From a virus: DNA of 26,410 nucleotides. Position numbers and translations under genes: made by a program. The notes beneath the pieces were generated by a model, which was not told the DNA's origin, ran no database searches, and saw only the letters and a list, made by a program, of their open reading frames with translations. The DNA lies in the IMG/VR virus record IMGVR_UViG_3300049483_000059, positions 1 through 26,410 of that record; one strand, given 5' to 3'. Shown here piece after piece: positions 4,171 to 25,401 of the stretch (positions are counted from its first letter, which is position 1; every line of letters starts with the position of its first letter).

Positions 4171-5341
4171 AAAAACGACGTTCGTTGAAATTCTTTTTGT
4201 TTGCTAGTGCCATGAGTATACACAGGTCTATTTCACTACGAGTTTTGAATGTGTAGTAATATAATGAAGAGAACGGACTATCCATGCGGTCTATTCGGCC
4301 AGCAGCTTGTATCATCGCTCTATAAGAGTAGTTCATGCTCCAGAATACTACCGTGTCAGTAGTCGTGCAGTTCCATGCTTCAGCTCCAGCAGCGTACTGA
4401 ACGAGATAGATCCACTCTTCTGATGTCGGAATCGGTTCATGCATGTGACCATTGTATTCAGCTATCTCGCATTCCATGTTGGCTTTTATATATTCTAGTT
4501 CATAGTCGAAGTTATAGAATACTATGAGCTTACGATGTTTTTCAACCAAATGGTGCAACTGTGCGATTCGTCCCGGAGTTATGTTCCCGACCTTGCGCAT
4601 TAGATAACAGGCCTCGGACGCATTCTTTACAGGCTCATCAGTCCATGGATTCCATCTATCTTTTGCAATGGTTTCGTATGTCTTTTCGTCGTATTCGGTT
4701 TCAATGTGTATGTAGTGCTTAAGTTTATCTTCTCCATAATTTGGAATTGGAACTAATAACTTGTCCCTGTAATACTCTAACTTCGGTATGTTGTTGTATC
4801 TTATTATTTTTGGAAAGTTTAAGTATTGATGATACACTACATGCTCAAGCACGAAACTCCTACGTGATTCATAGAATCCATTAGCCAGGAACATCGGTAC
4901 GTAATCGATCCAAACATCGCCAGGAGTAGCTGTAAGCAGAATAAACTGATTAGACTTAGTCACTTTAAGAAATGACTTAACCCAGGCTCCAGATCCTACG
5001 ATTCGTTGTTCGTCAAACAAAAAGAAAGCGTTCTTTACTTTGTCATACTTGTGGAGATTATTCCACGAGTCGACAGTTACTTTCACGTTCTTCTGCATTT
5101 CTATTAGCAGCCAGCTGAGTTCTTTATCCCATTCGTGTTTATCGCGTTTAGCTGCTGGCGTGATGATATATAGGTCCATGGGATTTTTGAACGGTGTACG
5201 TTCGAACTCAACTCCGCCGCACTTGCGAACATAATAAACCAGTGAGGTCAAGGATTTCCCTGACCCCACTGTTCCGTACAATATTGAGCCATTGTGCAGC
5301 TTGTCAATAGCCTCTAGCTGACCCTGCTTAAGCGTGACCAT
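4163..5341 (-). CDS. SF2 DNA helicase / ATPase
   Basis: A 392-residue superfamily 2 helicase that probably unwinds or remodels DNA during phage replication. Visible motifs: Q-like KQGQLEAI (5-12), Walker A GTVGSGKS (23-30), a variant Walker B FLFDEQR (107-113, usually DEAH/DEAD), motif III LLTATP (135-140), and motif VI QAAGRIDR (345-352) with both arginines. The C-terminal RecA-like half around VFYNF and VVFWS supports a complete two-domain core with no large accessory domain. The ATG overlaps the end of the ssDNA-binding-like gene by 14 nt and I see no strong ribosome site, so translational coupling is likely. Small helicases with D-E-x-x and QxxGRxDR motifs are common beside polymerase, SSB and VRR-NUC genes in Gram-positive phages. 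The exact substrate is unknown. Confidence 0.85.
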   Translation of the reverse strand: MVTLKQGQLEAIDKLHNGSILYGTVGSGKSLTSLVYYVRKCGGVEFERTPFKNPMDLYIITPAAKRDKHEWDKELSWLLIEMQKNVKVTVDSWNNLHKYDKVKNAFFLFDEQRIVGSGAWVKSFLKVTKSNQFILLTATPGDVWIDYVPMFLANGFYESRRSFVLEHVVYHQYLNFPKIIRYNNIPKLEYYRDKLLVPIPNYGEDKLKHYIHIETEYDEKTYETIAKDRWNPWTDEPVKNASEACYLMRKVGNITPGRIAQLHHLVEKHRKLIVFYNFDYELEYIKANMECEIAEYNGHMHEPIPTSEEWIYLVQYAAGAEAWNCTTTDTVVFWSMNYSYRAMIQAAGRIDRMDSPFSSLYYYTFKTRSEIDLCILMALANKKNFNERRFLK

Positions 5342-5798
5342 CTACTGCGAAGTAGCGGTCGTGCAAAGGATCTGGCATAAGTTCAAAGAAACCTTCTTCC
5401 AGGAAACCGCTGACCTTCTGAGGCTTTTCCTGCCAGATGTACTGGTTGATCTTCAGGCTGACGCTCTGGAACCTGGCAAAGTCCAGGATGTTATACTCTT
5501 CGGGTGCCATCAATTCGGGACGGCGACCCGGACGAACAAGCCACAGACGAGGCGGAAACTTGCTGTCCGTTTTCACAGTGAAAGAGATAAACTTCCCAGG
5601 AACAACATCGGGATCGGATGATTTGCCAATGCGGATGTTCCAACCAATGTCCGCAAGCCTCGCAGCCAGAGCATCATCGATCAGAACGCAGGCATTTCGG
5701 TCGCCAGCTTTATTGTATTCGGTTGGAGCCCCAGAGAAATTGGGGAACAGGAGTTGAGCATCCTGAAGGATAATTGGTTCATAATGCGGTCTAGCCAT
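5328..5798 (-). CDS. Probable phage single-stranded DNA-binding protein
   Basis: The start at 5798 (156 residues) has AAGGAG 7-8 nt upstream. The ribosome site lies in the last codons of the DNA polymerase gene. The N-terminal pattern LLFPNFSGAPTEYNKAGDRN, then a V-L-I-D strand and a GWNIRIG segment, resembles a family repeatedly found next to phage replication genes and usually annotated as ssDNA-binding or gp32-like. No zinc-binding Cys set is present. The rest is predicted beta-rich with aromatic residues (about FTVK, RLWLV, FARFQSVSLKINQYIW) that could stack on bases. The tail is acidic (FFELMPDPLHDRYF), as often in SSBs. Position between polymerase and helicase supports the role. Function rests on pattern and context, not on a named fold. 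Confidence 0.62.
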   Translation of the reverse strand: MARPHYEPIILQDAQLLFPNFSGAPTEYNKAGDRNACVLIDDALAARLADIGWNIRIGKSSDPDVVPGKFISFTVKTDSKFPPRLWLVRPGRRPELMAPEEYNILDFARFQSVSLKINQYIWQEKPQKVSGFLEEGFFELMPDPLHDRYFAVDGHA

Positions 5799-5799
5799 T

Positions 5800-8700
5800 T
5801 TAATTCTCCTTAGAAAAGAACAAATCGAAATTGCCCATAGCGCGAATCGGTTCAATAGCTTCGGCTAATAGGTTGTTGTAATATGCTTTGTCGACTGGTA
5901 GTTCGAGTTCTTTTACCATGGCAGTCGGGAACCACTCGTGTCCTATGGTCCCAGCAACATGATAATACTTTCCGTCCTTAAGGCGGTACAGTTCTCCGCC
6001 CTCAGCTAAGACCGGCATAAAAGAGCCGGTTCTTCCCTGGAATGTATAAGTATCGCCCTTCTTAAGATAGATGGCTGATCCTCCAGTAACGCTCTTGATC
6101 TCTCCGCAGTCGTCATAAGTCAATGGCTTACCAGGCTCAAAGAGATTCTTATATACCCATGGGTGCTGATACTGCGCGCCTACAGCTTCCCATTTATCGG
6201 TGTCAATCTTTCGCGCAATGTAAACTGCTTTGTTTAGTAAGCAGAAACGATCATACGTGTCCTCTTCCGAGAACTTATAACCATATTTCATTCCAAACTC
6301 ATGCACGAACCAAACATCTTCGTCGGTAGGATCTAGCAGCTTTACGCTGTCAGTCTTAATGTGCAAAACTTTGGCGCCACGATCTTTGAGAGCTTCAAGC
6401 AGGTCTATCATAAACAAAGCGCCACGTTTGGCTACAATGTTGTCTACATTGCGAGGATCTCTGAACGGTCCGCCCTTGGCCATTGTTAAGCCATAGACCG
6501 AATTAATTGCGTGAATCTTAAGGGCGAACGCCATGTCCTTAGCATTCTCAGGGGTAAGCAAGTGCGCTTGTTCTCCGAGTAGTTCTTTAGCCAAGTCATA
6601 ATCTTTATGCTTGATAGCCAAACGAATATGAACTAGCCTTGCAAACTTGTGCGTGTACTCGTCACCAAACAGATTCAACTGGATGATAGAGTTTGGATGC
6701 ATGGATTCAACATCAAGCACACGGATCTTTCCCATGTACATTCCTGGCTCGGCATAAACAAAACCGCCTTCGCCTGCCTCGTATCCTCTATAGTGACTTA
6801 CCTTTCCGTCAAACGTATAGCCTGGGAACATCTCATCTAGATGCGTGTACACAAATTTGGATTTTGGATTTGGATCGTCACCAAATATGATACGGGCGTC
6901 ATGCTCCATAGTGCTGGCATTCAGTGGAAGACCACTCATCGCAGCTAACATTTGACGAGCCTTGTAATCAGCATCGTATATTTTGTGAATCTGCTTTAGC
7001 GTCACGACATCATTTTTGCAATACTTTATGATGCCTGGTATCTCGTTCGGTTTTACAGGCTCGTTCCACGGTTTTTCGAGTTCCATATGAACTAGGCCGT
7101 GTTCAATCTGCAGCTTCTTCAAACCTTTCTTATCAGAAAGCATTTCATAGATGTCCAGGTACGACAGTCCGACTGCTTCACGGTAGTACCACCGTTTGCC
7201 ATTGTTAATGATATCATCTGATATTTGGTAAATCTTTTCAGGCTTATGCCCTAACGAAATACCATAAAGAATATGGTTATCATATCCTTTATTATTAAAA
7301 CCGACCAGCTTCTGTGTTAGTAGCCACTCAGCATCTTCTTTAGTCGGATTAGCTATCGCTACCGGTTCGTCGGAAGTTTCTGCTTGGTATACAACGCAAT
7401 TAAAATTTGGATAAACTTCCATATCGAAATAGACCAATGGCCGATCATCCACAACCATTTCAGACGTAGCATGTTCAATCTCCGTGTGAGCTGATTTCCA
7501 CTTCATCTTCGAAACGCATCGCATTGATTCTTTGGGATGATTCGTTGATGACATGGCGAAATTAAGAATTGTTTGTTGCATGTCGCTGACATCGTAACGA
7601 AGGCCGTTCTTGTAAGCCTCGTCTAGTATTGTTTGTATGAACATAACGCTTGGGTATGTACCCGCGTGTATTTCTTTTTTCAGATTGCGTTCTATAAGAT
7701 CTCGCAATCCTTTTTCAGTTTGAATAGCTTTAGCTTCAGCCAACTTACGCTCCTTCGTGGGCAGAGGCCCAGTCAGCTTGGTTATAGGATGATTGTTGCA
7801 CAAAGATAGTCTGCGGCGAATAGCAGAGTGTCCGGTGCTCTTCTTGATCTCAATTCCGTTGCTGAAGTTTCCCTTCAACTTTTTGATGTCACCAGTGTAT
7901 ATATAATGAAGGTGCAAGGCATTGCCAGAGTTACTGACCTCAGCATACGTTGGAGGAAATTCTTTAGCCGCCTCTTTAGCTCTGGTCAAATCTTTCTGAC
8001 CATTCTCGTCTTTTAGATCAATATCGATTACGATATGATCAGGCGGAAGAACAACGAAATGTGTTTTCTTTTCGTCAATCTCATCCAATACTAATTCTGA
8101 TTTTGTAACATCGATGTGAACAATGCCGTCACTGTCGGCATACGCAGCCCGACAATCTCTGCAGACAGCTTTCAGAATGGACTTAGACGGCGCTTGATTT
8201 AGTTCCAAGAAGTCTTCAAAATCACCAGAGTCTAGATCGTCGTATTCGATCGTGGGTGATAGACGATGCTTCAAGAACCCGATGAAAACATCGGTAAGAC
8301 GTTTAGCACCATCTTTGTAGTTTGAATGGAACTCTTTGAAATAAACTTTGAGTTCTTCTCTAAACTTATACTTTGGCATTACGCCCTTAATGTTTGAGTC
8401 TGCGCAATATTCTTTGTAAAGTGTGTAGGCTTTACTGAGAAGAATATATGGTTCACTGTCAAACATGTCTGCATAGTTTGCAATGAAGTTAAACGTCGTG
8501 TCAGTCTCAAACATCATTTGCAACGGTTTATATATGCTGTAATAATCAGCGCCAGCCTTCTTAAAAACTTTAAGGCAGTGATGAGCTATTGCACCGAGCT
8601 CCATCTTGATACGCTTAACTAGGATAGCATATTGAATTTCGGGCACTCGTTTTCCTGACGGTTTAATGTCAATCAAACGACGGACAATACCAGATTTGGC

Positions 8701-9546
8701 ATCAGTAATCTTTACAGCCCGGTTTGACCCAAGGAACAAAGTCGCGTTGATACGCATGGGAAACGTTGACCTGTTCTTGATGTTCATAACAATCTCTTCA
8801 TGAGAAACTATAGCGTTCAGCTTAGCATTGTCAGTTACTTCGGAAAGATCAACATCGTGTTGTATACCAACCAACGGATTTGATCTCAAACTTTCAAATG
8901 CAAACGAACTGTTTCCAACTAGAGCTTTAGCATCAAACGCGGTCCAGTACCCAGCGAACAGATCTTGCATAATATTCATTGCCGTAGATTTGCCAGATCC
9001 GCTCTCGCCATAGAAGACATAAAACTTCTGAATGTTAGGGCTTTCACCAGCGATAACAGAGCCAATGGCCCATTCAATCTTGTGCAATTCTTCTGGGTTA
9101 TACAAAACCCCCATCAGCTTATCATATGACGGATGCTCTCCAGGCTCTAGTGCATAATCAAGTTGTTTGCTGACTAAAGATTCTCTGGTTATTACATCGC
9201 CACGAAAACTAAGTTTCTTGTCAAGATCTCGGTAGTTATCTCCGAGTTTGCTCATATAGGCTTTAAAGTTGGCCCAGGATCTGGATGAGAAGTTGGTCAT
9301 TGTGCTAACAGTAACTTTAGCTTTTGTCTTCTTCTCGACCTCTTGTTTCTTTAGATATAGTTCTTGGTCGATCATCTGGGCGACTCTGTACTCGTCAGTA
9401 GACCATAAATTGGCTTCTTGATCCCAGACAGCGTAGAAACCACCGCCGCGGATCATCAGGTCTTGACTTCGCATAACTTTAAAGTCCGGGACTATGTGGA
9501 CGCCGCCGGACTTCTTTTTTGTTACGGTTATCTTTAGGAAGTCCAA
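5800..9546 (-). CDS. SF3 helicase / primase-like / family B DNA polymerase fusion
   Basis: A 1248-residue replicase that seems to combine unwinding, priming and synthesis. Residues about 140-300 are a D5-like SF3 helicase: Walker A GESGSGKST (180-188), an HDVD Walker B-like segment (230-233), sensor LGSNR (272-276) and R289/R290. Residues about 480-600 look like an archaeo-eukaryotic primase: IDID with D508 and D510, then SGNALHLHY with H545/H547. Residues about 700-1248 are a family B polymerase. Exonuclease motifs are intact: FDME (D708, E710), FNNKGYD (D756), YCKND (Y842, D846). Polymerase motif A is DVESMHP (from 945), motif B KIHAINSVYG (1010-1019), motif C HIKTDS (1062-1067). Motif C has Lys where the first Asp of DTD is usual. 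The start is TTG with AGGAGG 4 nt upstream, overlapping the previous gene by 13 nt. Domain order comes from motifs; primase activity is inferred. Confidence 0.9.
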   Translation of the reverse strand: MDFLKITVTKKKSGGVHIVPDFKVMRSQDLMIRGGGFYAVWDQEANLWSTDEYRVAQMIDQELYLKKQEVEKKTKAKVTVSTMTNFSSRSWANFKAYMSKLGDNYRDLDKKLSFRGDVITRESLVSKQLDYALEPGEHPSYDKLMGVLYNPEELHKIEWAIGSVIAGESPNIQKFYVFYGESGSGKSTAMNIMQDLFAGYWTAFDAKALVGNSSFAFESLRSNPLVGIQHDVDLSEVTDNAKLNAIVSHEEIVMNIKNRSTFPMRINATLFLGSNRAVKITDAKSGIVRRLIDIKPSGKRVPEIQYAILVKRIKMELGAIAHHCLKVFKKAGADYYSIYKPLQMMFETDTTFNFIANYADMFDSEPYILLSKAYTLYKEYCADSNIKGVMPKYKFREELKVYFKEFHSNYKDGAKRLTDVFIGFLKHRLSPTIEYDDLDSGDFEDFLELNQAPSKSILKAVCRDCRAAYADSDGIVHIDVTKSELVLDEIDEKKTHFVVLPPDHIVIDIDLKDENGQKDLTRAKEAAKEFPPTYAEVSNSGNALHLHYIYTGDIKKLKGNFSNGIEIKKSTGHSAIRRRLSLCNNHPITKLTGPLPTKERKLAEAKAIQTEKGLRDLIERNLKKEIHAGTYPSVMFIQTILDEAYKNGLRYDVSDMQQTILNFAMSSTNHPKESMRCVSKMKWKSAHTEIEHATSEMVVDDRPLVYFDMEVYPNFNCVVYQAETSDEPVAIANPTKEDAEWLLTQKLVGFNNKGYDNHILYGISLGHKPEKIYQISDDIINNGKRWYYREAVGLSYLDIYEMLSDKKGLKKLQIEHGLVHMELEKPWNEPVKPNEIPGIIKYCKNDVVTLKQIHKIYDADYKARQMLAAMSGLPLNASTMEHDARIIFGDDPNPKSKFVYTHLDEMFPGYTFDGKVSHYRGYEAGEGGFVYAEPGMYMGKIRVLDVESMHPNSIIQLNLFGDEYTHKFARLVHIRLAIKHKDYDLAKELLGEQAHLLTPENAKDMAFALKIHAINSVYGLTMAKGGPFRDPRNVDNIVAKRGALFMIDLLEALKDRGAKVLHIKTDSVKLLDPTDEDVWFVHEFGMKYGYKFSEEDTYDRFCLLNKAVYIARKIDTDKWEAVGAQYQHPWVYKNLFEPGKPLTYDDCGEIKSVTGGSAIYLKKGDTYTFQGRTGSFMPVLAEGGELYRLKDGKYYHVAGTIGHEWFPTAMVKELELPVDKAYYNNLLAEAIEPIRAMGNFDLFFSKEN

Positions 9547-11377: not shown

Positions 11378-12253
11378 TCAAATGAGCTTGAAAACAACGC
11401 CCATGACGTTCGATTCAATCATTACTTCCGAGGGGGCGAAACCCGAAACCGTTCGCACTGGGAACAGCACGATATGAGCATCCGGGTGATTGGCATCGCG
11501 GACCCATCCGACTACCTGGCCAACATCTGTGCGCCGGACATCGAACTGATCATGGAGTTCATTCAGGAACACATGGCCGCGCCCGACAAGCAACTGGTTT
11601 AGATAGCGTTCGACCTGCTGGATGTGGAATGCATTGGCTGCCTGGTCGTGTTCGCGATAGTGACAAGAGAACTTGTCCCAGACGAATCCAAAGCCGGTGC
11701 CGGTGCTCTTAATCTTTTCCGGTTGCAGACCAAGTTCTGTCAGGTCTTTTTCCAGTTGACCGTTCACATCCTCAGCGAATGTATGGGCAGGAAGTGTTGC
11801 GCCCTTGCCATCTTCATCGGCGACAGCACCAGGGAAAGCTGCAAGAATTCCACCAGTTCGTTCGCGGTACTGGTTAAAAGCTTGCGTCACTGAAGTCAAA
11901 GCTGCGGCTGTTGCGGCATACCGACCGTTCAGGATCCTGTATGAAGCGGCTGCACAAGCTGCACTGACTAACGCACCTGCGACCATCGGAATTGCTGGCT
12001 TGGCGAGATCACGAAGAGTCCCCATGATGATTTCTTCACGGGCTTTCTTGTCGTTCGGACCGGGATTTTCCTTGAGATCGATGAGTGCAACCCGAGCATT
12101 GCGGATCGTTCCATCGCGCTCAATTTTCTGACCGTACTTCACGCCCTGGTACAGCGCAAATCCGCCAGCCAGAATACTCAAACCAAGAAAGATTTCTGGT
12201 GAGCGCTGCTTGGCGAACAGTCCTACTTTTGCTGCATAATTGTTTATGTCCAT
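11378..12253 (-). CDS. DUF6353-like two-TM phage membrane protein, paralogue 1
   Basis: A 291-residue membrane protein of unknown role. The start has AAGGA about 7 nt upstream. Visible order: N-terminus with RSPEIFLGLSILAGGFALYQ (first membrane segment, about 17-38), a charged loop with KARE, a second membrane segment about 86-107 (AIPMVAGALVSAACAAASYR), a helical AATAAALTSVTQAFNQYRER stretch, then a soluble domain to the end. The SPEI...TM...TM...YR pattern and C-terminal 'LGW/VGW...DA...PV' beta region fit DUF6353-like proteins of Gram-positive phages. The gene at 13421-14071 has the same plan. Function is unknown. A membrane-bound host-takeover or superinfection role would be a guess. Confidence 0.72.
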   Translation of the reverse strand: MDINNYAAKVGLFAKQRSPEIFLGLSILAGGFALYQGVKYGQKIERDGTIRNARVALIDLKENPGPNDKKAREEIIMGTLRDLAKPAIPMVAGALVSAACAAASYRILNGRYAATAAALTSVTQAFNQYRERTGGILAAFPGAVADEDGKGATLPAHTFAEDVNGQLEKDLTELGLQPEKIKSTGTGFGFVWDKFSCHYREHDQAANAFHIQQVERYLNQLLVGRGHVFLNELHDQFDVRRTDVGQVVGWVRDANHPDAHIVLFPVRTVSGFAPSEVMIESNVMGVVFKLI

Positions 12254-13397: not shown

Positions 13398-13423
13398 GTT
13401 CTATTATATGCCCTGTTATTTTA
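13398..13423 (-). promoter_or_regulatory. Phage promoter-like element, copy 2
   Basis: On the minus strand it begins TAAAATAACAGGG and ends CATATAATAGAAC, matching the 17027 copy at all 26 positions. TATAAT is a perfect -10. There is no visible -35. The first three bases are the TAA stop of the 216-residue gene. The leader to the next start is about 45 nt, with no G until the ribosome site. The next three genes (56, 98 and 190 residues) are probable targets. Confidence 0.75.
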
Positions 13424-14071
13424 GTGCATGTACTTGGGCAAAGGATTAACAGAAAGCACCACAACAGGATATGTTTCGTCTTTTAGACGCGTGGAAAGAT
13501 TAAAGACGATTGGTCCGTCTGTCCAACCAAGTTGGCTGCCTCCGCTGATGTGCTGTAAACCTAATTCATCGCAGAAGTCATCCATTGTGGCCATCATATG
13601 GTTGATAACCTGGTAGTTCAGAGCTTGACATACTTTGTGGATTTTTTCAACGCTTGCCACAAAGGATTGCCCTGTTGTGTTGTCCAGACAGTAGGTATTT
13701 GGTTGAACAAGTAATTCAGATCCAGCAGGTACTTTGAATTCGTTGTCAACCTTTTCTTGAAGAATACGAGCTTCAGCATCCACTAGAACCTTTTCAGGTA
13801 TAGATTTCTGCAGATCCTTGAGAGCCCCTCGGGTCATATCATAGGCTCCCATCAATGCGTCGAATCTGCGAGCATCTCGTACGTTAGTGATGACGAGGAT
13901 TCCAGTGGCTACTGTGAACAGAGTTAAAGCAGGCGCGTAAGCCATAGCGTGTTCCCGTACATTGCCTTCTACAGGCTTATTATTCAGCCGTCGAGTGGCT
14001 AATACAGCACTGACGACCGAACCAGCATACAGTCCGATCGACAGCGCTAACATGGCTTTAGAGGTTTGCAT
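13421..14071 (-). CDS. DUF6353-like two-TM phage membrane protein, paralogue 2
   Basis: A 216-residue membrane protein with the same plan as the 291-residue gene at 11378. A first membrane segment lies at about 5-25 (KAMLALSIGLYAGSVVSAVL) and a second at about 45-63 (AYAPALTLFTVATGILVITN). A helical DARRFDALMGAYDMTRGAL region and a soluble beta-rich end follow. The end has LGWTDGPIVFNLS and PVVVLSVNPLPKY, close to the DUF6353 C-terminal pattern (L-G-W-x-D-G then a final P-x-P-x-Y). The start overlaps the previous gene by 14 nt; the ribosome site is weak (AAGAGA). Function unknown. Confidence 0.75.
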   Translation of the reverse strand: MQTSKAMLALSIGLYAGSVVSAVLATRRLNNKPVEGNVREHAMAYAPALTLFTVATGILVITNVRDARRFDALMGAYDMTRGALKDLQKSIPEKVLVDAEARILQEKVDNEFKVPAGSELLVQPNTYCLDNTTGQSFVASVEKIHKVCQALNYQVINHMMATMDDFCDELGLQHISGGSQLGWTDGPIVFNLSTRLKDETYPVVVLSVNPLPKYMH

Positions 14072-17615: not shown

Positions 17616-18116
17616 CTATTCCTTAGGCTTGCCAGGAAGACCAACAAGCTTGGACAGCAGGTCCGACAGGTTGCCTTTGACCCAGTCCGTAAGGTTGCCA
17701 TTCTGCGTGGAGTATATACCCAGGATAAGGCCTAGGAAGACCTGGATAATTACTGCAGTCTCAACAACAGGCATAACTTTATATAGACGCACGAACATAC
17801 CAAGCACGTAATAAGCAGTAGCGAACGCAGGAAGCCAATATAGGGTTATATCTTGAAGTGTCTTATACACCTGGACAGGCATGGACGGTATAGTAACATT
17901 GCCTCCCCTACCAGTGATGTAGTAGAGAGATGAACTTACGGTCAACAGCATACCAATGGCCGCTGATAGACCGGTCAAACCGGCGATGATATCCTCGTTA
18001 ATCGGGACTGTCCATACCTCAGCGATAGCGACAATGGCGCCGATGAGTGTTGGTATGACAAGAAGAGCGATCCACTTGATGACATCGTACACTTTATCAT
18101 TTAACGGTTTAAGCAT
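17616..18116 (-). CDS. Holin-like protein with an internal duplication
   Basis: A 166-residue membrane protein likely to be the holin that permeabilises the membrane for the lysozyme. The first half (about 9-66) resembles phage r1t-type holins: VYDVIKWIALLVIPTLIGAI, then a second hydrophobic segment ending GMLLTVSSSLYY. The second half (about 82-140) repeats the layout: VYKTLQDITLYWLPAFATAY, then VVETAVIIQVFLGLILGIYS. The Val-Tyr start, a Pro 13 positions later and a final G-x-x-L-x-x-x-S recur at equal spacing. So about four membrane helices are expected instead of two. The tail is short and soluble. Start ATG overlaps the previous stop (TAATG) with AAGGAG upstream. The order lysozyme, small TM protein, holin supports the call. 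Confidence 0.74.
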   Translation of the reverse strand: MLKPLNDKVYDVIKWIALLVIPTLIGAIVAIAEVWTVPINEDIIAGLTGLSAAIGMLLTVSSSLYYITGRGGNVTIPSMPVQVYKTLQDITLYWLPAFATAYYVLGMFVRLYKVMPVVETAVIIQVFLGLILGIYSTQNGNLTDWVKGNLSDLLSKLVGLPGKPKE

Positions 18117-18430
18117 TACGTTTGCTCCTTGATTTCAATTTTTAATTGGAAGACGGCTTCCATCATCCGAGATATGTTGCCGTTACCCCCAACGTCTCGG
18201 TAAGCCTCGAATAGTTCATTAATGACCCGGAAGTCCTCCGGGCTTATGTGATTTGCCGATATATGTTTCTGAGCTAAGTACGACAGCCTGTCATGTAAAA
18301 GCCCTTTCACGGCACGTTCTATTTTTCCGGTCTTTGTCATTCTTGCGCCAAAGAAAGTCCAAAAGCCCTGGCTAGCTGCCAAGGCTGTTATAATAAGTAA
18401 CAGTTGTTGTATTATGGGATCTATACTCAT
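18116..18430 (-). CDS. Small one-TM phage lysis-region protein
   Basis: A 104-residue protein with an N-terminal membrane segment (about 5-28, PIIQQLLLIITALAASQGFW) and a soluble end. The end has LLHDRLSYLAQKHI, HISPEDFRVINELFEAYRDV and GGNGNI. The LLHDR...I...DEL/EDF...LF-x-AY-x-x-x-GGNG pattern is a familiar small phage family of unknown function that sits beside holins and lysins in Gram-positive phages. It may be a second holin-like or spanin-like helper, but this is unproven. ATG overlaps the previous stop (ATGA); the ribosome site is weak, so translation is probably coupled. Confidence 0.74.
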   Translation of the reverse strand: MSIDPIIQQLLLIITALAASQGFWTFFGARMTKTGKIERAVKGLLHDRLSYLAQKHISANHISPEDFRVINELFEAYRDVGGNGNISRMMEAVFQLKIEIKEQT

Positions 18431-18705
18431 TGTGCTTCTGGGTCCTTTTCAGTGTATGTGCTAAAAGTTGGAATAATTTTTTGTAAACCTGGTTCAAATG
18501 TCATCACAACTTCAACAACTCTTGCCGGAACTATCGTCCCAGTCTTCTCTTCTAGAATGCCGACAACGTCTCCCAGTTCGTAATCTGTACCAAACTTATA
18601 CGGGCCAGTATCATTAGCGACACCGTCCGTGAATAAAAAACGTTCTGAATTTTTAAGATAGACACGTGCATCAGTGGCTATCAGAGCGGGGATATCAATT
18701 GCCAT
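18427..18705 (-). CDS. C-terminal part of a Gp37-like tail protein, encoded separately
   Basis: A 92-residue protein with AGGAG 6-7 nt before its ATG. It matches the usual C-terminal end of siphovirus ReqiPepy6 Gp37-like tail proteins: KFGTDYELGDVVGI (compare the typical Y-G-x-D-Y-D-L-G-D-I-V), then ARVVEVV and KIIPTFS (typical R-I-x-E-V and P-T-F-G). The N-terminal part of this family is in the 700-residue gene at 22490-24592, which lacks this end. It therefore looks like the two halves of one ancestral protein, now separated by fibre and lysozyme genes. It has its own start and may associate with the other half in the tail tip. Confidence 0.7.
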   Translation of the reverse strand: MAIDIPALIATDARVYLKNSERFLFTDGVANDTGPYKFGTDYELGDVVGILEEKTGTIVPARVVEVVMTFEPGLQKIIPTFSTYTEKDPEAQ

Positions 18706-18717
18706 TATTTGCTCCTA

Positions 18718-20070
18718 CTATTTCTTTACCAGAGCAAGTAGAGGAACCCACCACGGCCCGCCTAAAATCGGGCAGACAATATTTTGTGGAAGTGGGTTTC
18801 CGAGATTGTCACAAACCATGTGAAACAGCCACGGTGTTAGATGCGGAGATAACTTTGCCAAATCCGCAGTACCATCAATCGGTATTGATTCGATCCGTGC
18901 CCAGGATCCAGAAATCTCTAGCACGTTGACTATGTTGTTTTGATTAGCGTTTGACGGATATACAAGGCCGATGTACCGTAACAGTCCATTGCCGTTTATC
19001 CCTTTAGATGGGCCATAGTCTTTTGCTGAGATTTTCTTCCATCCTCTTTCATCGTTGAAACGCTGAATATACTGTTGCCATTGTATGGGCAACAACGTTT
19101 CTTCGTAAGCGGTTTTAGGTGTATGGCTCATCGTTTGAGTGAGCGGTCCACCATTCGGCGGAATTTTTAATGGAGCATGGGTGAACTTCCAGTTTTCCGC
19201 GGCAACACGATAGAAATTTTTTGATGGGGTTGTATTCGGCGGATTCGTTACTCGTTGGTCAACAAAGGCCATGTGTTCAACATTGTTCAGTGTGTATGTA
19301 ACTGTAACAATTCCATTGATAGGGGTATTACCCAATGAAACTTTTTTGAACGTTACAACTGGTTCAGGATCGGGATTGGGATTAGGATCGGGCTCAGTCT
19401 CTGGAACATTCCCAAAGTAAGCTGCCAATTCTTCCTCCGAACCATAAAACAGGTTGCAGTCCAAGAAATGTCCAGGGGCACCAGGCAATAAGAACTTATC
19501 GCCGAATTGCCACATCTTTACTGTTCCTGGGCAGTTCATGTAATTGAACGGTTTGTCCAAACGTTCGATGCGTGTCTTTAATATGTCCCAATCAGCAACC
19601 TGATTAAAGAACGTATCGAATGTAGGATATTGAGCCCACCAATAATCCGTTTTAGGCCAGCTGGTTAGGTTTAATAAAAACCATTCGCCTGTATAAATAA
19701 TTGTTTTCCACAGTGGCTTGCAAAGATTTAAGAACTTTATAAGTTCTCCGGCATAAGTATTAGCCGCATAACCAAACTTAGAGACTTCCACATCGACTGC
19801 TACAGATTTTGCTTCTGCTGGCATATTAGCCTTCAGCCAATTATAATTACCCTGGCCATCGACCCATGGGTTGTACACGAAGTATGGGAATCGTACAAAG
19901 TTTTTAGACTGTTCCCATTGTATCACAAAATTTTTGTCCATATGATGTCCGCCGTTCATATCGTTCAGGCGAATACCAATGCCAGCAACGCCACCAGCTT
20001 TAAGGACGGCTTCATCCAGATCCGGATTGCCTTCCCATACATCAATTACGAGACAAGTATTTGGTTTCAC
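18718..20070 (-). CDS. GH25 lysozyme (endolysin) with Pro/Asp linker and C-terminal module
   Basis: A 450-residue peptidoglycan hydrolase that should cut the glycan chain of the Gram-positive wall. The GH25 domain covers about 1-222: VIDVWEG (D10), an FPYFVYNPW region, AVDVE (D93, E95: the catalytic D-x-E), YTGEWF, YWWAQYP, and WQFGD...PGAPGHFLDCNLFYG near the end of the domain. A linker TEPDPNPNPDPEP (about 225-237) leads to a C-terminal module of about 210 residues with NVLEISGSWARIESIP near residue 390, which may be SH3-like and bind the wall. No signal peptide is seen, so release by the holin is expected. Start is GTG with AAGGAG 6-7 nt upstream. A tail-tip role is an alternative, because it lies between fibre and tail fragments. 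Confidence 0.86.
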   Translation of the reverse strand: MKPNTCLVIDVWEGNPDLDEAVLKAGGVAGIGIRLNDMNGGHHMDKNFVIQWEQSKNFVRFPYFVYNPWVDGQGNYNWLKANMPAEAKSVAVDVEVSKFGYAANTYAGELIKFLNLCKPLWKTIIYTGEWFLLNLTSWPKTDYWWAQYPTFDTFFNQVADWDILKTRIERLDKPFNYMNCPGTVKMWQFGDKFLLPGAPGHFLDCNLFYGSEEELAAYFGNVPETEPDPNPNPDPEPVVTFKKVSLGNTPINGIVTVTYTLNNVEHMAFVDQRVTNPPNTTPSKNFYRVAAENWKFTHAPLKIPPNGGPLTQTMSHTPKTAYEETLLPIQWQQYIQRFNDERGWKKISAKDYGPSKGINGNGLLRYIGLVYPSNANQNNIVNVLEISGSWARIESIPIDGTADLAKLSPHLTPWLFHMVCDNLGNPLPQNIVCPILGGPWWVPLLALVKK

Positions 20071-20080
20071 TTATTTCTCC

Positions 20081-22489
20081 TTATGAGGCTAGATAGCAGC
20101 CAGTGAATGTTACTGATCCTGCTGTGTCAATTGGAACGTTAGTCAATGCACCGCTACCAACTTCCTGGAACGCTGCATACGATGTTCCGCCAAGTCCATT
20201 TAGAAACAGTTTGTTTCCAGCGGCAAGAAGTGTAATACCAGTCCATGACATAATGAACCCAGCATTAACACCGGAGTTTACGAATCCAAACGGGAAATTA
20301 ACCACACGCATGGATCCAGTTCCAGTATGAGCACTCCAAATTAGTTCCACCTGAATAAATATTAGCTTTCCGAGTCTCCAGTAGAAACCAAGTTGAGACG
20401 AATATGTTCCAACGCCAGCCGTTGTTGACCCTGCGATTGCAGGCGCAGTCGGCCAGGCTGTTCTATCGTATTGGTCAGATAAACCAGTTGAAGGTATAGC
20501 AATAGCTGCGCTACCATCAAAGTTTACACCAGCGATTGCTCTTGGGGTTGCCAGTTTAGTGGCTGTTCCAGCATTGCCTGACACGCTTGACTGATCTCCA
20601 GTGTTGTTTCCAGAAACTACCGCGTTATAATCGATGTTACTTCCGTAAATACGTCCCGAGCTTTGTATACCATATTCGTTTATGGTTGCCCGAAGAACAT
20701 GATTATTCTCGACACTTCCGTCAGCACCTGAAGATGGGGTAAAGAAAGTAATTTCAGATGCGCCAAGGCCCGTAGATTTTCCTGATCGCAAAACAAGATT
20801 GCCACCAACTTTATTTGGAGCGGCTGGACTATCACCAGCGTCAATGAGTAGAGCGTTTCCACCTCCGGCAGACGGGGCTGCTTTATCTATGCTAATATAA
20901 TGAGGCATATCTCCACTAAACTTGAGTCTTGATCCAGTCAAAGGGGCATTACTTAAATCCAGTTTTAGCAATGCTGCTAGTGCGGTTTGCAAATCAGTTT
21001 GATTACCAATAGTTCCAGTAATTCCACCCCAAGCACCACTGCCACCTGCGTTATTTAACGCGGTCTGTAAATCGGTTTGGTCAGAGAGGTCTCCAGTGAT
21101 ACCGCCCCAAGCAGCAACGGCACTTGCGTCCTCTAACGCCGTCTGCAAATCTGTTTGGTCAGAGAGGTCTCCAGTGATACCGCCCCAGACACTTCCTGGG
21201 TTATCGTGAGTATGCGGCACACCATCAATGTCGTACGTTTTACCTGCTGGAATGTTCAGGCCGTTCGCTCCGAATTTCATTGTGGAGTTTGCCGTTCCTC
21301 CAGCGTCGGTTATGACTACACGAAATTCTGTTCCACGTTTGTCAGGGCCAATGCTCCAGTCTTCACTGGCGAAGAAACCCATCGAGATTGCGTTCCAGAA
21401 ATCAACGCCGTCATAACCATTGCCAACTATGCCAAACAAACTGTTTCCAGCGGTTATAGCTGTCGGCGTAACCTTGGTTCCCTTAGCACGGAATCCTTGT
21501 ATCACACCGCCAGAACCGAATCCCCAAAGGTTATACCTAGGAGGATTTACATCTTCTTGCACCTGGTTCACCGCGTTAATACTAGCGGCTGTAGGGAAGT
21601 TCGTCGTGTCAAGGGGATCTCCGAAAAGATCAAGTCTCTTGCTTGTCGGTTCGTATGACCCAAAAGCAATGCCTAGTGGAGTCTCTGCACTGCCATCGCC
21701 TTGAAGACTGTCGTCTGTCGTTATTGTCACAATGCCGCCTTCTCCAGATCCTGCTCCGCCTCCAGTGAGACGCAAATCAAAAATATCGCCACCGGTTTCC
21801 TTATCTTCTAGCTTCACTTTCTTTGCACTAGCTCTTACCACGCATACTGGATGTGTCCCAGCTGGTATCTTAGGGAAATCGGCAGGGGCGACGATCTTAG
21901 CCTTGCTAGTACCCTGTGTAACTATCATTTTGACGGTAATGACGCCGTCAACATCCACCAACCCAACAGATAAGAGCACGAACCTAGCTCCTGTACCTGG
22001 TCTGTAGGCTTCGACTGACAGTATCTCGCCTGGGTACTTATAGGCTTGATCGCCAAACACTACCCAACCTGGTTTGATGGTGATATCCCAAGTGCCAGAT
22101 ACAGTCGGGCGCAATGGTAAGAACGTCCTGGTGTCAACATAGACAGGGTCAACACTGTAGGCAGAATGATTAGGGCCATGATTCTTTATGAACGAGAACC
22201 ACAGGTCGGACGGCTTGTATTGAGTGGATGGATATCGAGCCCGTGGCACTCCATCTAAGCCTTTATACACATATACCTGAAGATCAGTCATTAAAGGAAC
22301 AGACTCATTGTAGACTTCAGCTTGAGTGTTATCATCTAAATAACGAACCTTGATAAAATTAGGACGGGCAGATGATGACAATGTACCATCTGTCCATCCA
22401 GTCCTAGCCGGTCTCCGTTTTTCGATGAACACACTGGACTGCAAAATAAATTGTTTTATTGTTTCCCAAGATATGGGTTGACTGAGCAT
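20081..22489 (-). CDS. Tail fibre / receptor-binding structural protein
   Basis: An 802-residue fibre-like protein. The N-terminal part (about 1-240) is a globular, beta-rich attachment region. Residues about 240-280 are Gly-rich (GGGAGSGEGGIVTI) and lead to a shaft-like region. At about 434-490 three copies of a 26-residue unit with WGGITGDLSDQTDLQTAL are seen, typical of trimeric fibre shafts. Later parts are Ser/Gly/Asn-rich (VSGNNTGDQSSVSGNAGTAT), with a final beta-rich knob of about 130 residues ending in FTGCYLAS. Position between the tail-tip gene and lysozyme fits. The start has GGAGG 5 nt upstream. Which part binds the host cannot be told from sequence. Confidence 0.78.
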   Translation of the reverse strand: MLSQPISWETIKQFILQSSVFIEKRRPARTGWTDGTLSSSARPNFIKVRYLDDNTQAEVYNESVPLMTDLQVYVYKGLDGVPRARYPSTQYKPSDLWFSFIKNHGPNHSAYSVDPVYVDTRTFLPLRPTVSGTWDITIKPGWVVFGDQAYKYPGEILSVEAYRPGTGARFVLLSVGLVDVDGVITVKMIVTQGTSKAKIVAPADFPKIPAGTHPVCVVRASAKKVKLEDKETGGDIFDLRLTGGGAGSGEGGIVTITTDDSLQGDGSAETPLGIAFGSYEPTSKRLDLFGDPLDTTNFPTAASINAVNQVQEDVNPPRYNLWGFGSGGVIQGFRAKGTKVTPTAITAGNSLFGIVGNGYDGVDFWNAISMGFFASEDWSIGPDKRGTEFRVVITDAGGTANSTMKFGANGLNIPAGKTYDIDGVPHTHDNPGSVWGGITGDLSDQTDLQTALEDASAVAAWGGITGDLSDQTDLQTALNNAGGSGAWGGITGTIGNQTDLQTALAALLKLDLSNAPLTGSRLKFSGDMPHYISIDKAAPSAGGGNALLIDAGDSPAAPNKVGGNLVLRSGKSTGLGASEITFFTPSSGADGSVENNHVLRATINEYGIQSSGRIYGSNIDYNAVVSGNNTGDQSSVSGNAGTATKLATPRAIAGVNFDGSAAIAIPSTGLSDQYDRTAWPTAPAIAGSTTAGVGTYSSQLGFYWRLGKLIFIQVELIWSAHTGTGSMRVVNFPFGFVNSGVNAGFIMSWTGITLLAAGNKLFLNGLGGTSYAAFQEVGSGALTNVPIDTAGSVTFTGCYLAS
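21075..21187 (-). repeat. Two identical 35-bp direct repeats in the fibre gene
   Basis: The 35 bp at 21075-21109 and 21153-21187 are identical and start 78 bp apart, which is exactly one 26-residue protein unit. A third, diverged copy lies just below (about 20995-21035). The identity suggests recent duplication or gene conversion, and the number of units could change by recombination. Confidence 0.85.
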
Positions 22490-24592
22490 TTATCCTCCAA
22501 GAATTGGCCAACAATATATTGGCCACTCGGCTAGCATACCGTCACCAGATAGACCAGACGACTCAATAAGATAATCTTTTAGGAACGGAGTCATAACTGT
22601 TGGGTCAGAAAGATCGTCATTAGTAGAAACGAAAAAGGCAGGCGATGATTGATCCCAACCACCAGGTGCACCCACGCCTCTAACAAGAGGCAACCAACCC
22701 CACTGTTGTTTTTTAGTTGTATAATCAGTACCAGCATTAGCATACCGGTGAATATTTGTATCACGCGGACCTAAAGTTTGTGTTGTTCCGCCCATAGTAT
22801 CTGCGCCGAATTTTATTACCATCGGAACATTGTAGTTATCTCTGGTAATGAACGACTTGCCGTCCACTGAAAAATCTCCATCAAACGGACGGAAAGGACC
22901 AAGCGGTAACGTGCAATGGTCTAGTTCTTCCATAGGATCTTCGTTGAACATGTCCTTGCTTCTATGTATGTGCGGTGCAGTTTGGTCCCAAACAGCCGTA
23001 AAGTAGGCTACATCGTTAGCGTATTCTGGACGCATATGCCACGACAATTCAAACCCAGTATTAATAAAACATTTGAGTTCAACGTTGGACCATGTTCCTG
23101 ACGATGCACGTTCAAGTGTTCTGGAACTCAATGTTCCATAAGTGCCGCTCATTGTAATGCGACCATTCCGGATAACCATCCTGTACATATCGGTCTGGGG
23201 ATATCCTAATTCAATGGGTTTTGATGGGCCAGCAAATCCTAATTCGTAAGCAGTGCCATCGAAGAATAACCCATTGTGGGATGATGACCATTGCCAACCG
23301 CCATTAAATTCGCCAGTAGGGTTAACAATCGTGCCCGAAACTTGACCGGTAATAGGATCCATGCCGAACGACCCAATAATATTAGCGGCGTTAGGATATC
23401 CAAGAGATACATCTTCGGCATTAAGAATCTGTTCAGCTTGGGTAAAATATCTTGACCCGAACCAGCCGCCAACCATAGATGCTCGATATATTTTTTTTCG
23501 GTCTGAAGACGCAAAAATAAAATCTCCACTTCCGATTGCGACTTTTGAGTTGGTTGCTGTTACTTGAACAGCAAGACCGTCCACTGGCTCAGGAGTAACG
23601 TCGTACCACATATCTGGAACTGGCAGGCCTGGATAGAGCGCGCAGCCGAGTACGCGTGACTTATTCGTAAGAACATACAAGCCAACCAAAGTGGTTTCTG
23701 GCATTGGATCGGGATTCGGATCAGGATCAGGGTCGGGATTGGGATCTGGGATCTTAGGTCTAGGCGGAAATGGTTCATCTGGAACTCCTGGAAGTTCACC
23801 ATGTCCAGTGGATATAAAGCCTTCTCGAAGTTCGATCCCTGTCTTTGTAGTACCCCGATTAAATATTTTGAGATCATCAAAATTCTTAACATACACGCGA
23901 GTCTTGTACGGGGCTAAGTCAATAATAGACTTAATATCTTTCAGCGTTTCTGACTCAGCTGATAATGTCACTGTCTTCACTTTAGGGGCGCCGTGCGTCA
24001 AAGATGTGAAACCACTACACAAATTGTTTCCAGGTATAATCATGAAAGTAAACAGTTTAGAACTGATGTCATATGTCGCCTGGTATCCAAGATTCTTAGA
24101 CTCAAGAAGATTTGATATAGCGGACATGACGGTGACCCCGGATACAAGTCCCTTTACTTTTTGAGCGACCACGATTGAATCTCCAGAGGTTGCAAACCTA
24201 AAGAAACTTACAGTTCGCGTATTATCTTCTGGACTGATGATACTTTCATTTATTAATGCTTCTATTGATGATTGAAGACTTGCGCCGTCGAGCATTTTAT
24301 CTTTAAAAACGATTCTTTGCTCAAGAAATCCTTCTGCTGAATTTCCTTTGATTATGACAGCTTTTTTGTCGCCGAGAACAGTGTCACGCTCAACAAAATC
24401 TATTAGAAATAGACTTTTTGTTTCATGATGATACAGGTACATAAGTTCTTTTACAACTACTGCAGCGCTAGAGGCTTCAGACAGTGTCATGTCCATCAAG
24501 CTGGGCGAAGAAAAGCGAATACTCAGTGTGGCTGAGAGATAATCAGTGATTTCCATGACTGGATTTCTGGAGGAATCTAATAACAAAAACAT
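22490..24592 (-). CDS. Gp37-like tail protein (N-terminal part) with added distal module
   Basis: A 700-residue tail-tip protein. Residues about 1-260 match siphovirus Gp37-like proteins: beta-rich opening, HETKSLFLIDFVE, GNSAEGFLEQRIV, then LAPYKTRVYV and TGIELREGFIS near 226-260. Where the usual C-terminal barrel should follow, there is a Pro/Asp/Asn linker (about 268-299; PDPNPDPDPDP) and an unrelated 400-residue module. That module is rich in Trp, Gly and Asp, with repeated phrases such as FFDGTAYELG and VMTPFLKDYL, and may be a beta-propeller-like or carbohydrate-binding domain. This is inference. The missing barrel seems to be encoded at 18427-18705. Start ATG overlaps the previous stop (TAATG), GGAGG upstream. 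Confidence 0.76.
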   Translation of the reverse strand: MFLLLDSSRNPVMEITDYLSATLSIRFSSPSLMDMTLSEASSAAVVVKELMYLYHHETKSLFLIDFVERDTVLGDKKAVIIKGNSAEGFLEQRIVFKDKMLDGASLQSSIEALINESIISPEDNTRTVSFFRFATSGDSIVVAQKVKGLVSGVTVMSAISNLLESKNLGYQATYDISSKLFTFMIIPGNNLCSGFTSLTHGAPKVKTVTLSAESETLKDIKSIIDLAPYKTRVYVKNFDDLKIFNRGTTKTGIELREGFISTGHGELPGVPDEPFPPRPKIPDPNPDPDPDPNPDPMPETTLVGLYVLTNKSRVLGCALYPGLPVPDMWYDVTPEPVDGLAVQVTATNSKVAIGSGDFIFASSDRKKIYRASMVGGWFGSRYFTQAEQILNAEDVSLGYPNAANIIGSFGMDPITGQVSGTIVNPTGEFNGGWQWSSSHNGLFFDGTAYELGFAGPSKPIELGYPQTDMYRMVIRNGRITMSGTYGTLSSRTLERASSGTWSNVELKCFINTGFELSWHMRPEYANDVAYFTAVWDQTAPHIHRSKDMFNEDPMEELDHCTLPLGPFRPFDGDFSVDGKSFITRDNYNVPMVIKFGADTMGGTTQTLGPRDTNIHRYANAGTDYTTKKQQWGWLPLVRGVGAPGGWDQSSPAFFVSTNDDLSDPTVMTPFLKDYLIESSGLSGDGMLAEWPIYCWPILGG

Positions 24593-25401
24593 TACAGACC
24601 TCCATAGTTTGATTGATATGTTACTGCAAGCCCAGTGTTAGGAACCCCTGTAGCTTCTATCTCATTGTCACCCGGATCTATCTGGATCCAAGTGTAGGGC
24701 AACGTTACTGCTGAGAAAATGTTATGCCTGGTATTTTGAGAGATCAACTCGCAGGATTTTATGTCGCCTGTTTTGAGAAGTATCTGACTATCTGCTGGGA
24801 CAGGATCTAATAATGCGGCAAGTTTGGTCATACTTATTTTCATTGACGTATTATTTTCATTGTTCTTTATAGTTAACGTTCCTGTGGTTGGAGATCCAGT
24901 AAGTGTAAGAGCTATATTGCATCCGCAAGATACATCACCATCATTGGTAAAACCAACAGTGTCACCCCCAATGAGATTTGTAAGTGTTTTAGATGAAGAT
25001 AAAAACTCCGACTTAGGACATATTATTGTCACAACCATTATAGATTCCTTAACGAAAACAGGATTATTGCAGGATTCAACAACCCCGGATATTTCTCGGT
25101 AGGTAACTTCGCTTGTCTTGAACACAAGTTTCACGCTGTTCCCTGCCCTGAACACGGTCATCAAAGTTGCTCGTCTTTCTTCCACATTTGTATCTGTGAT
25201 TCGTATCGACATAACTATGATACGTTGTTTTGGTGCTACACTGGAAATTACGGTCCTGGTGTTCAGTTTATCTACCGTAATTTCTCTACTATCTTCAGCG
25301 ATACCAGTAATATCGAATATGAGTGCCCCATCAGATTCTGAAGCACTCATATCCAATACACACTGGTAACTGCCCGAGTAAGCAGTTACTTTTTCTAACA
25401 C
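24592..25401 (-). CDS. Distal tail protein (Dit-like)
   Basis: A 269-residue protein in the normal position of the distal tail protein, directly after the tape measure gene and before the Gp37-like tail protein. The N-terminal 135 residues look like the Dit tail-tube-like domain: VLDMSASESDGALIFDITGI, KLNTRTVISSVAPKQRIIVM, VEERRATLMTVFRAGNSVKL and CPKSEF. The second half (GDVSCGCNIALTLTG, then TGTLTIKN and an end with TWIQIDPGDNEIEA) is a galectin-like beta sandwich by pattern. Such proteins form the hexameric hub joining tail tube and tip. Start is GTG with AGGAG 6-7 nt upstream. Confidence 0.8.
   Translation of the reverse strand: MLEKVTAYSGSYQCVLDMSASESDGALIFDITGIAEDSREITVDKLNTRTVISSVAPKQRIIVMSIRITDTNVEERRATLMTVFRAGNSVKLVFKTSEVTYREISGVVESCNNPVFVKESIMVVTIICPKSEFLSSSKTLTNLIGGDTVGFTNDGDVSCGCNIALTLTGSPTTGTLTIKNNENNTSMKISMTKLAALLDPVPADSQILLKTGDIKSCELISQNTRHNIFSAVTLPYTWIQIDPGDNEIEATGVPNTGLAVTYQSNYGGL

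Follow-up and report, generated by a model that had tools for sequence, protein, structure and literature searches.

A putatively divided Sipho_Gp37-type tail hub with fibre and lysozyme-like genes between its two parts

Introduction

How can a phage build its tail hub when the hub gene stops short of the usual C-terminal end and a piece resembling that end lies about 3.8 kb away, behind other genes? The question is raised by a 26,410-base virus fragment (the window, meaning the whole stretch that was analysed). A sequence-only reading had proposed that an ancestral Gp37-like gene was broken open here by the acquisition of host-recognition genes, with both parts kept. We put a probability of roughly three in four on the following answer: the two genes encode complementary parts of a gp27/gp44-type hub (Tal) opened in a loop, host-recognition genes lie between them, and the two chains co-assemble.

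Results

Tail-tip genes of the window

The genes considered here are all encoded on the minus strand. Their order is the end of the tape-measure gene, a Dit-like gene, the 700-aa gene, an 802-aa fibre, a 450-aa lysozyme-like gene, a 92-aa gene, a 104-aa gene and a Dp-1-type holin. Further genes extend downstream of the holin as far as a primase-polymerase (5800-9546), whose tblastn identity to its counterparts in Rhodococcus, Gordonia and Streptomyces phages is 45-46%. The features of the tail-tip region are as follows.

24592..25401, minus strand: distal tail protein (Dit-like), upstream of the hub; phrog_33, E 2.8e-10
22490..24592, minus strand: 700-aa gene, putative hub N-part plus added module; PF14594 positions 4-242 at residues 4-235
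23807..24592, minus strand: putative hub N-part, residues 1-262; HMM positions 10-258 and Foldseek matches of the 700-aa model
22493..23806, minus strand: added module, residues 263-700; a Pro/Asp-rich linker, then about 400 residues with no family match
20081..22489, minus strand: tail fibre, 802 aa; phrog tail-fibre matches and local matches to T4-type distal long tail fibres
18718..20070, minus strand: lysozyme-like gene, 450 aa; phrog_291 (endolysin), E 8.6e-8, and phrog_3084, E 4.6e-4
18427..18705, minus strand: putative hub C-part, 92 aa; PF14594 positions 304-368, HMM positions 271-355, four invariant residues kept
18116..18430, minus strand: 104-aa protein; phrog_4105, downstream of the hub in several relatives too
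17616..18116, minus strand: holin (Dp-1 type); PF16938, E 2.1e-18, downstream of the hub in relatives too

From Dit to holin, these are seven close-packed genes on one strand. The fibre gene immediately follows the TAA of the 700-aa gene, in the same frame, the lysozyme-like gene ends TAG TAG and shares its frame with the 92-aa gene, and the start of the 104-aa gene overlaps the end of the C-part. Six of the seven genes have a clear ribosome site, that of the 92-aa gene being AGGAG, in agreement with the earlier statement that both parts have sites of their own; the 104-aa gene is the seventh, and overlaps the C-part instead. Third-position GC is 0.315 in the C-part, 0.359 in the hub N-part, 0.352 in Dit and 0.481 in the 104-aa gene. 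The C-part is nearer to the hub N-part and Dit than to the gene adjoining it, which over 92 codons is no more than suggestive. The Dit-like gene also matches SPP1_Dit, at E 0.0018, below the cut-off, and no lysozyme family in Pfam or NCBIfam matches the 450-aa protein. A search of the window for RNA elements gave no Rfam match at gathering score and no tRNA gene.

Some further features of these sequences were observed. The motif PILGG occurs at the end of the 700-aa protein (22490-22510) and near the end of the lysozyme (18740-18800); blastp found no similarity between the two proteins. Residues 608-667 or so of the fibre are 43-64% identical to tail fibres of unrelated phages, including T4-type distal fibres. 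Elsewhere on the minus strand, DUF6353 (PF19880) matches at 11378-12253 (E 3.3e-28) and at 13421-14071 (E 1.1e-24), with shorter gene candidates between these two genes.

Two ORFs match complementary parts of one hub family

Both ORFs are present as previously described, 700 aa and 92 aa long and about 3.8 kb apart on the minus strand. PF14594 (Sipho_Gp37, 370 positions) matches the 700-aa protein at positions 4-242 only (E 3.7e-11, 43.1 bits), which upholds the view that its N-terminal 260 or so residues are Gp37-like and that the C-terminal end is absent. The 92-aa protein is matched at positions 304-368 (E 5.9e-11, 42.4 bits); the curated cut-off is 26.2 bits, and both ORFs score above it. 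In the window, therefore, the N- and C-parts of the family are carried by two ORFs and not by one chain, and the whole 26,410-base record holds no PF14594 match beyond these two. A second profile, phrog_538, agrees (33-253 in the 700-aa gene, 309-379 in the 92-aa gene). Between the matched parts lie the added module (438 aa), the 802-aa fibre and the 450-aa gene with its phrog endolysin matches, again as had been claimed.

An HMM built from 125 hubs (369 positions) matches the window pieces at 10-258 and 271-355. When the pieces are placed as fragments in an alignment of 50 hubs, their ends come together in a single loop whose length varies among relatives: "..ELREGFIST" closes the N-part, and the C-part begins just before the helix "A-L---G---L". 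By these alignments, little of the hub sequence appears to be lost between the two pieces. All four residues that are invariant in a 21-row alignment of the C-part are kept (G45, D46, E65 and P79 of the 92-aa protein). The strings RVYVKN and RVYLKN near the two ends were considered as a duplication; they occupy different positions in the alignment, and the idea was rejected. The nearest known hub by tblastn is that of Bifidobacterium phage BitterVaud1 (QIG78144, 392 aa), 29% identical over residues 1-177; this is a phage of Bifidobacterium asteroides. Scans of viral contigs with single-protein and two-row queries gave no near relative of the window's hub, and sequence searches of the PDB gave no useful match. 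The complementary coverage suggests that the 700-aa and 92-aa ORFs are parts of one hub that is a single chain in unsplit relatives.

Relatives carry the hub as one chain

Related records were scanned in a set of 80 contigs with a related polymerase and seven reference phages, 87 in all, of which 54 have a PF14594 match (38/50 plus 16/37). Reading the ORFs of the retrieved loci directly, we obtained 50 different hubs no shorter than 320 aa, in which the C-part is joined to N-part sequence; the 40 of 90 hub ORF matches left out of the 50-row alignment were repeats of one protein or shorter than 320 aa. Fifty joined hubs speak for the ancestral single gene assumed by the sequence-only reading, and they dispose of its counter-case, in which the two ORFs would never be joined in relatives. 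A few of the 50 are incomplete at the N-end because the contig begins there or, for contig89, because the frame is broken. None of the following was counted as split: the hubs cut by the contig start in G026 and G048; two matches at opposite contig ends in G031, taken as probably one gene across a circular junction; and Siphovirus contig89, from saliva. In the last (L010 280-1622), the hub, at the very start of the contig, is spread over two broken ORFs that overlap, through a frameshift or a sequencing error.

A search based on the C-part yielded 96 loci, 80 from viruses and 16 from genomes, of which four are on contigs of the first set. In 95 of these, an ORF of 337-623 aa contains the C-part or ends with it; L205 is the exception, its C-part standing alone in a 107-aa ORF. 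Whole-genome scans of overlapping sets gave matches in 58/391, 22/398, 29/394, 42/349 and 22/345 genomes and one clear split (G1063), most matches being judged from match ranges and not from ORFs. Wherever a split or an insertion is claimed, the ORFs were read directly; the reported open-frame length (755 for L205, in spite of many stops) is not a stop-to-stop length. Several candidates were rejected: barrel-only and N-only matches in G1161, which are at contig ends; G1508 (L265) and G1575 (L266), apparent hub remnants in degenerate prophages; G1356 (L267) and G1432 (L268), truncated hubs in which no C-part was found; and the stand-alone barrel candidates Dulem virus 36, nd12, MT837771 and MT839464, which are joined hubs.

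The break precedes the last helix of the hub fold

A model of L043, an unsplit relative of 390 aa, was built from 19 sequences and has a mean pLDDT of 79.9. Foldseek matches this model to tail hubs, with E values down to 3.8e-16. A second structural alignment gave hub chains at Z from 21.9 to 14, among them Douge (21.9), Bxb1 (21.3), Mu gp44 (18.2), gp27 (2z6b, 15.3) and p2 (2wzp, 15.1). Because the L043 model has the gp27/gp44 hub fold, the split protein of the window is most simply read as the baseplate hub (Tal).

The window's split maps to L043 residues 272|282, between a strand (268-272) and a helix (280-297). From the model we infer a break within a loop region and a last beta domain to which each chain contributes. 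The N-part would hold the first domains of a gp27-type hub and the first half of that last domain, and the C-part the helix and the last strands. A break at this point, immediately ahead of the helix leading into the last strands, would require a single beta domain to be rebuilt from two chains. Since the earlier strands belong to the N-part, the 92-aa protein is probably half of a domain. It had been described as carrying just the C-terminal barrel: that it consists only of the Gp37 C-part holds, and "barrel" is too loose a word for it.

The 700-aa protein itself was modelled from a shallow alignment (20 rows) at a mean pLDDT of 49.8. Its first domain is confident (residues 1-90, in blocks of 89-95), and residues 192-273, the N-part's half-domain, are mostly below 50, compared with 70-89 for the same region of L043. 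Even at this low confidence, the model matches hub proteins by Foldseek over about 190-255 columns, with E values down to 4.8e-7. For the added module (residues 263-700) there is no accepted Pfam or NCBIfam match, tblastn of the 700-aa protein against phages gave no match outside residues 1-176, and the model confidence is too low for a fold to be read.

Other split hubs and in-frame insertions

Hub N- and C-parts are separate genes in at least three systems: the window, the virus contig L205 and the prophage L260. This count is a lower bound, many N-only or C-only partial matches having been judged from ranges alone. In L205, the hub N gene (4964-5830, PF14594 4-293) is followed by 88-aa and 269-aa genes, then by hub C, which starts with ATG (6902-7210, PF14594 285-370), and a fibre-like gene. 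Over 6902-7207, this C-part strongly matches phrog_33036 (E 4.5e-12), a 120-position family without assigned function.

L260 is a prophage on a 230-kb contig, with the order Dit, hub N (8567-9475, profile 4-263), a collagen-repeat gene, a 402-aa gene, hub C (6573-6971, profile 259-370) and a fibre-like gene. The unsplit L261 has the same neighbours; between the two, Dit is 45% identical, hub N 46%, hub C 43% and the next fibre 40%, and the 582-aa hub of L261 carries about 200 extra in-frame residues where L260 is broken. Because the order on both sides of the L260 break is that of unsplit L261, the cassette must have entered the hub gene. Extra in-frame residues also occur in L255, about 125 around the window's break place (HMM 283/261), and in L208, about 115, one strand earlier than the window's place. 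The insert of the L208 hub (5669-7165) is a paralogue of the start of the next gene (7165-8307), 47% identical over 130 aa. A prophage remnant, L265 (4180-5190), has a hub N-part with seemingly another domain inserted in the same loop, and is then truncated.

Alternative explanations

In the window, the end piece of the hub could instead have been copied behind a pre-existing fibre and lysozyme, the added module replacing the original end and the chains still co-assembling. Many relatives have other genes between the hub and the 104-aa gene or the holin, often one or two; with tail genes already in that place, the C-part of the window may have moved and not the cassette. However, L260 and L261 show insertion, with the Dit-hub N and hub C-fibre order of the unsplit relative, and in-frame insertions are known in the same hub region. 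Moreover, the window's C-part is directly followed by the 104-aa gene and the holin, genes that also stand behind the hub in relatives, and in some of these, such as L026, the 104-aa gene family comes directly after the hub. The claim that a hub was broken open by host-recognition genes is thus decided by L261 in the case of L260; in the window, insertion is only likely, relocation of the C-part being an unlikely but serious alternative.

The 92-aa protein could also be an adaptor in its own right, anchoring for example the lysozyme or the fibre and not completing the N-part. Its gene is directly behind that of the lysozyme, in the same frame, and the strong phrog_33036 match of the L205 C-part indicates that stand-alone hub C-parts may exist in other phages. 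Against this, coverage is complementary in three systems, the end of the domain being absent from the N-gene in each, and we consider such an adaptor improbable. A decaying remnant, dispensable for the tail tip of the window phage, is more improbable again. The scans gave no relative close enough for a test of selection, and real hub remnants occur in prophages (L265, L266), but the ORF here is intact, has its AGGAG site, overlaps the next gene and keeps the invariant residues, and the record holds no other copy of the C-part.

Stop read-through, yielding a lysozyme-barrel fusion that would fix the lysozyme to the tail tip, is scarcely credible: only TAG TAG and three codons separate the two ORFs in their common frame (18700-18730), but the stops are consecutive, the second TAG lies inside the ribosome-site sequence of the 92-aa gene's own ATG, TAG ends five of the 28 listed ORFs (8,078 codons, which by construction lack internal stops), and no tRNA gene was found in the window. 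Recoding of TAG was rejected, ORFs of 700, 802, 905 and 1,248 aa being open under the standard code. Nor do we give more than negligible weight to an assembly artefact, since, in this single metagenomic contig, the joints are at gene boundaries with ribosome sites, the Dit-hub N and hub C-104 aa-holin order matches the surroundings of the hub in relatives, and another split, L260, sits on a 230-kb contig.

Discussion

We return to the preferred reading, a hub gene opened by insertion. The opening would lie in the long loop of this hub's last beta domain (called the HDIII region in T5 and lambda nomenclature), leaving the first domains and first strands of that domain in the N-part and the helix and remaining strands in the C-part. 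With a stop and a new start, a whole fibre cassette would turn the hub into a two-chain protein. Most likely, the two chains, made from one operon or message, would meet in assembly and rebuild the last domain, giving a hub trimer with two kinds of chain. The new tail of the N-part, the Pro/Asp linker and about 400 residues, would emerge sideways from the hub at the loop, taking a recognition module outward. The lysozyme might be either packaged or an endolysin, and the position of its gene fits both. The sequences and models establish the complementarity, the place of the break, the fold of a relative and the recurrence; we infer this co-assembly, the presence of both products in virions, the placement of the module and, for this phage, insertion as against relocation.

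More tentatively, the loop before the last helix of Sipho_Gp37-type hubs may be a recurrent landing site for in-frame domains and fibre cassettes, a proposal we hold at somewhat less than even odds. It draws on the in-frame cases L255, L261 and L208 and on the two-chain cases of the window, L205 and L260. If true, fused tail tips could be divided repeatedly in this way, arriving at arrangements like those now fixed in lambda and RcGTA. The tail tube is closed by the hub ring, in which a cut through a beta domain ought to be difficult to achieve; that such cuts recur in one region would mean that the ring tolerates non-covalent assembly, and would point to the place where phages attach new recognition parts. 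In practice, gene callers will file the small hub piece as an unknown protein.

Divided hubs are known elsewhere. The lambda K gene product is a cell-wall peptidase. The hub of lambda is shared out between two proteins, gpL with HDI and gpJ with HDII-IV, whose genes have K and I between them; the two proteins assemble in the tail tip, one domain itself being common to both chains (PMC10721106). The window likewise has hub domains on two genes with others between. However, the lambda cut falls between HDI and HDII, through the HDII-insertion, and the window has no break between HDI and HDII-IV: its cut comes near the end of the chain, ahead of the final helix and strands (HMM 258|271 of 369). 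Unlike lambda L/J, the window's family is otherwise fused.

RcGTA has a hub, g13, and a megatron, g15, with the peptidase g14 between them (PMC7296036). RcGTA g13/g15 and the hub and megatron of roseophage R4C together hold domains that superpose on T4 gp27, and their genes flank a wall hydrolase gene (PMC7296036, PMC10276861, PMC10038345). The window resembles them in having two hub genes with a wall hydrolase gene between, here lysozyme-like. In RcGTA, however, the break is near HDI and the first hub protein has four iron-sulphur cysteines; the window is broken late and lacks those cysteines, with one Cys in residues 1-262 and none in the 92-aa protein. With lambda L/J and RcGTA g13/g15 as precedents, the encoding of a hub by two genes that flank a wall hydrolase gene is already known to work.

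Evolved Dit and Tal proteins carry carbohydrate-binding modules inserted inside tail-tip proteins, as described in PMC8540738. Both they and the window add recognition domains, but the evolved proteins stay one chain, whereas the window has whole genes in the break. In the literature searched on split hubs, tail-tip designs and Sipho_Gp37, mostly outside subscription journals, we found no late-broken Sipho_Gp37 hub. That family, PF14594, recognises both pieces of the window, and the unsplit members read are single chains. The window may belong to a series leading from fused hubs to the split arrangement that has so far been documented in lambda and RcGTA, and what differs from the known systems is the place of the break, its origin within a fused family and its recurrence.
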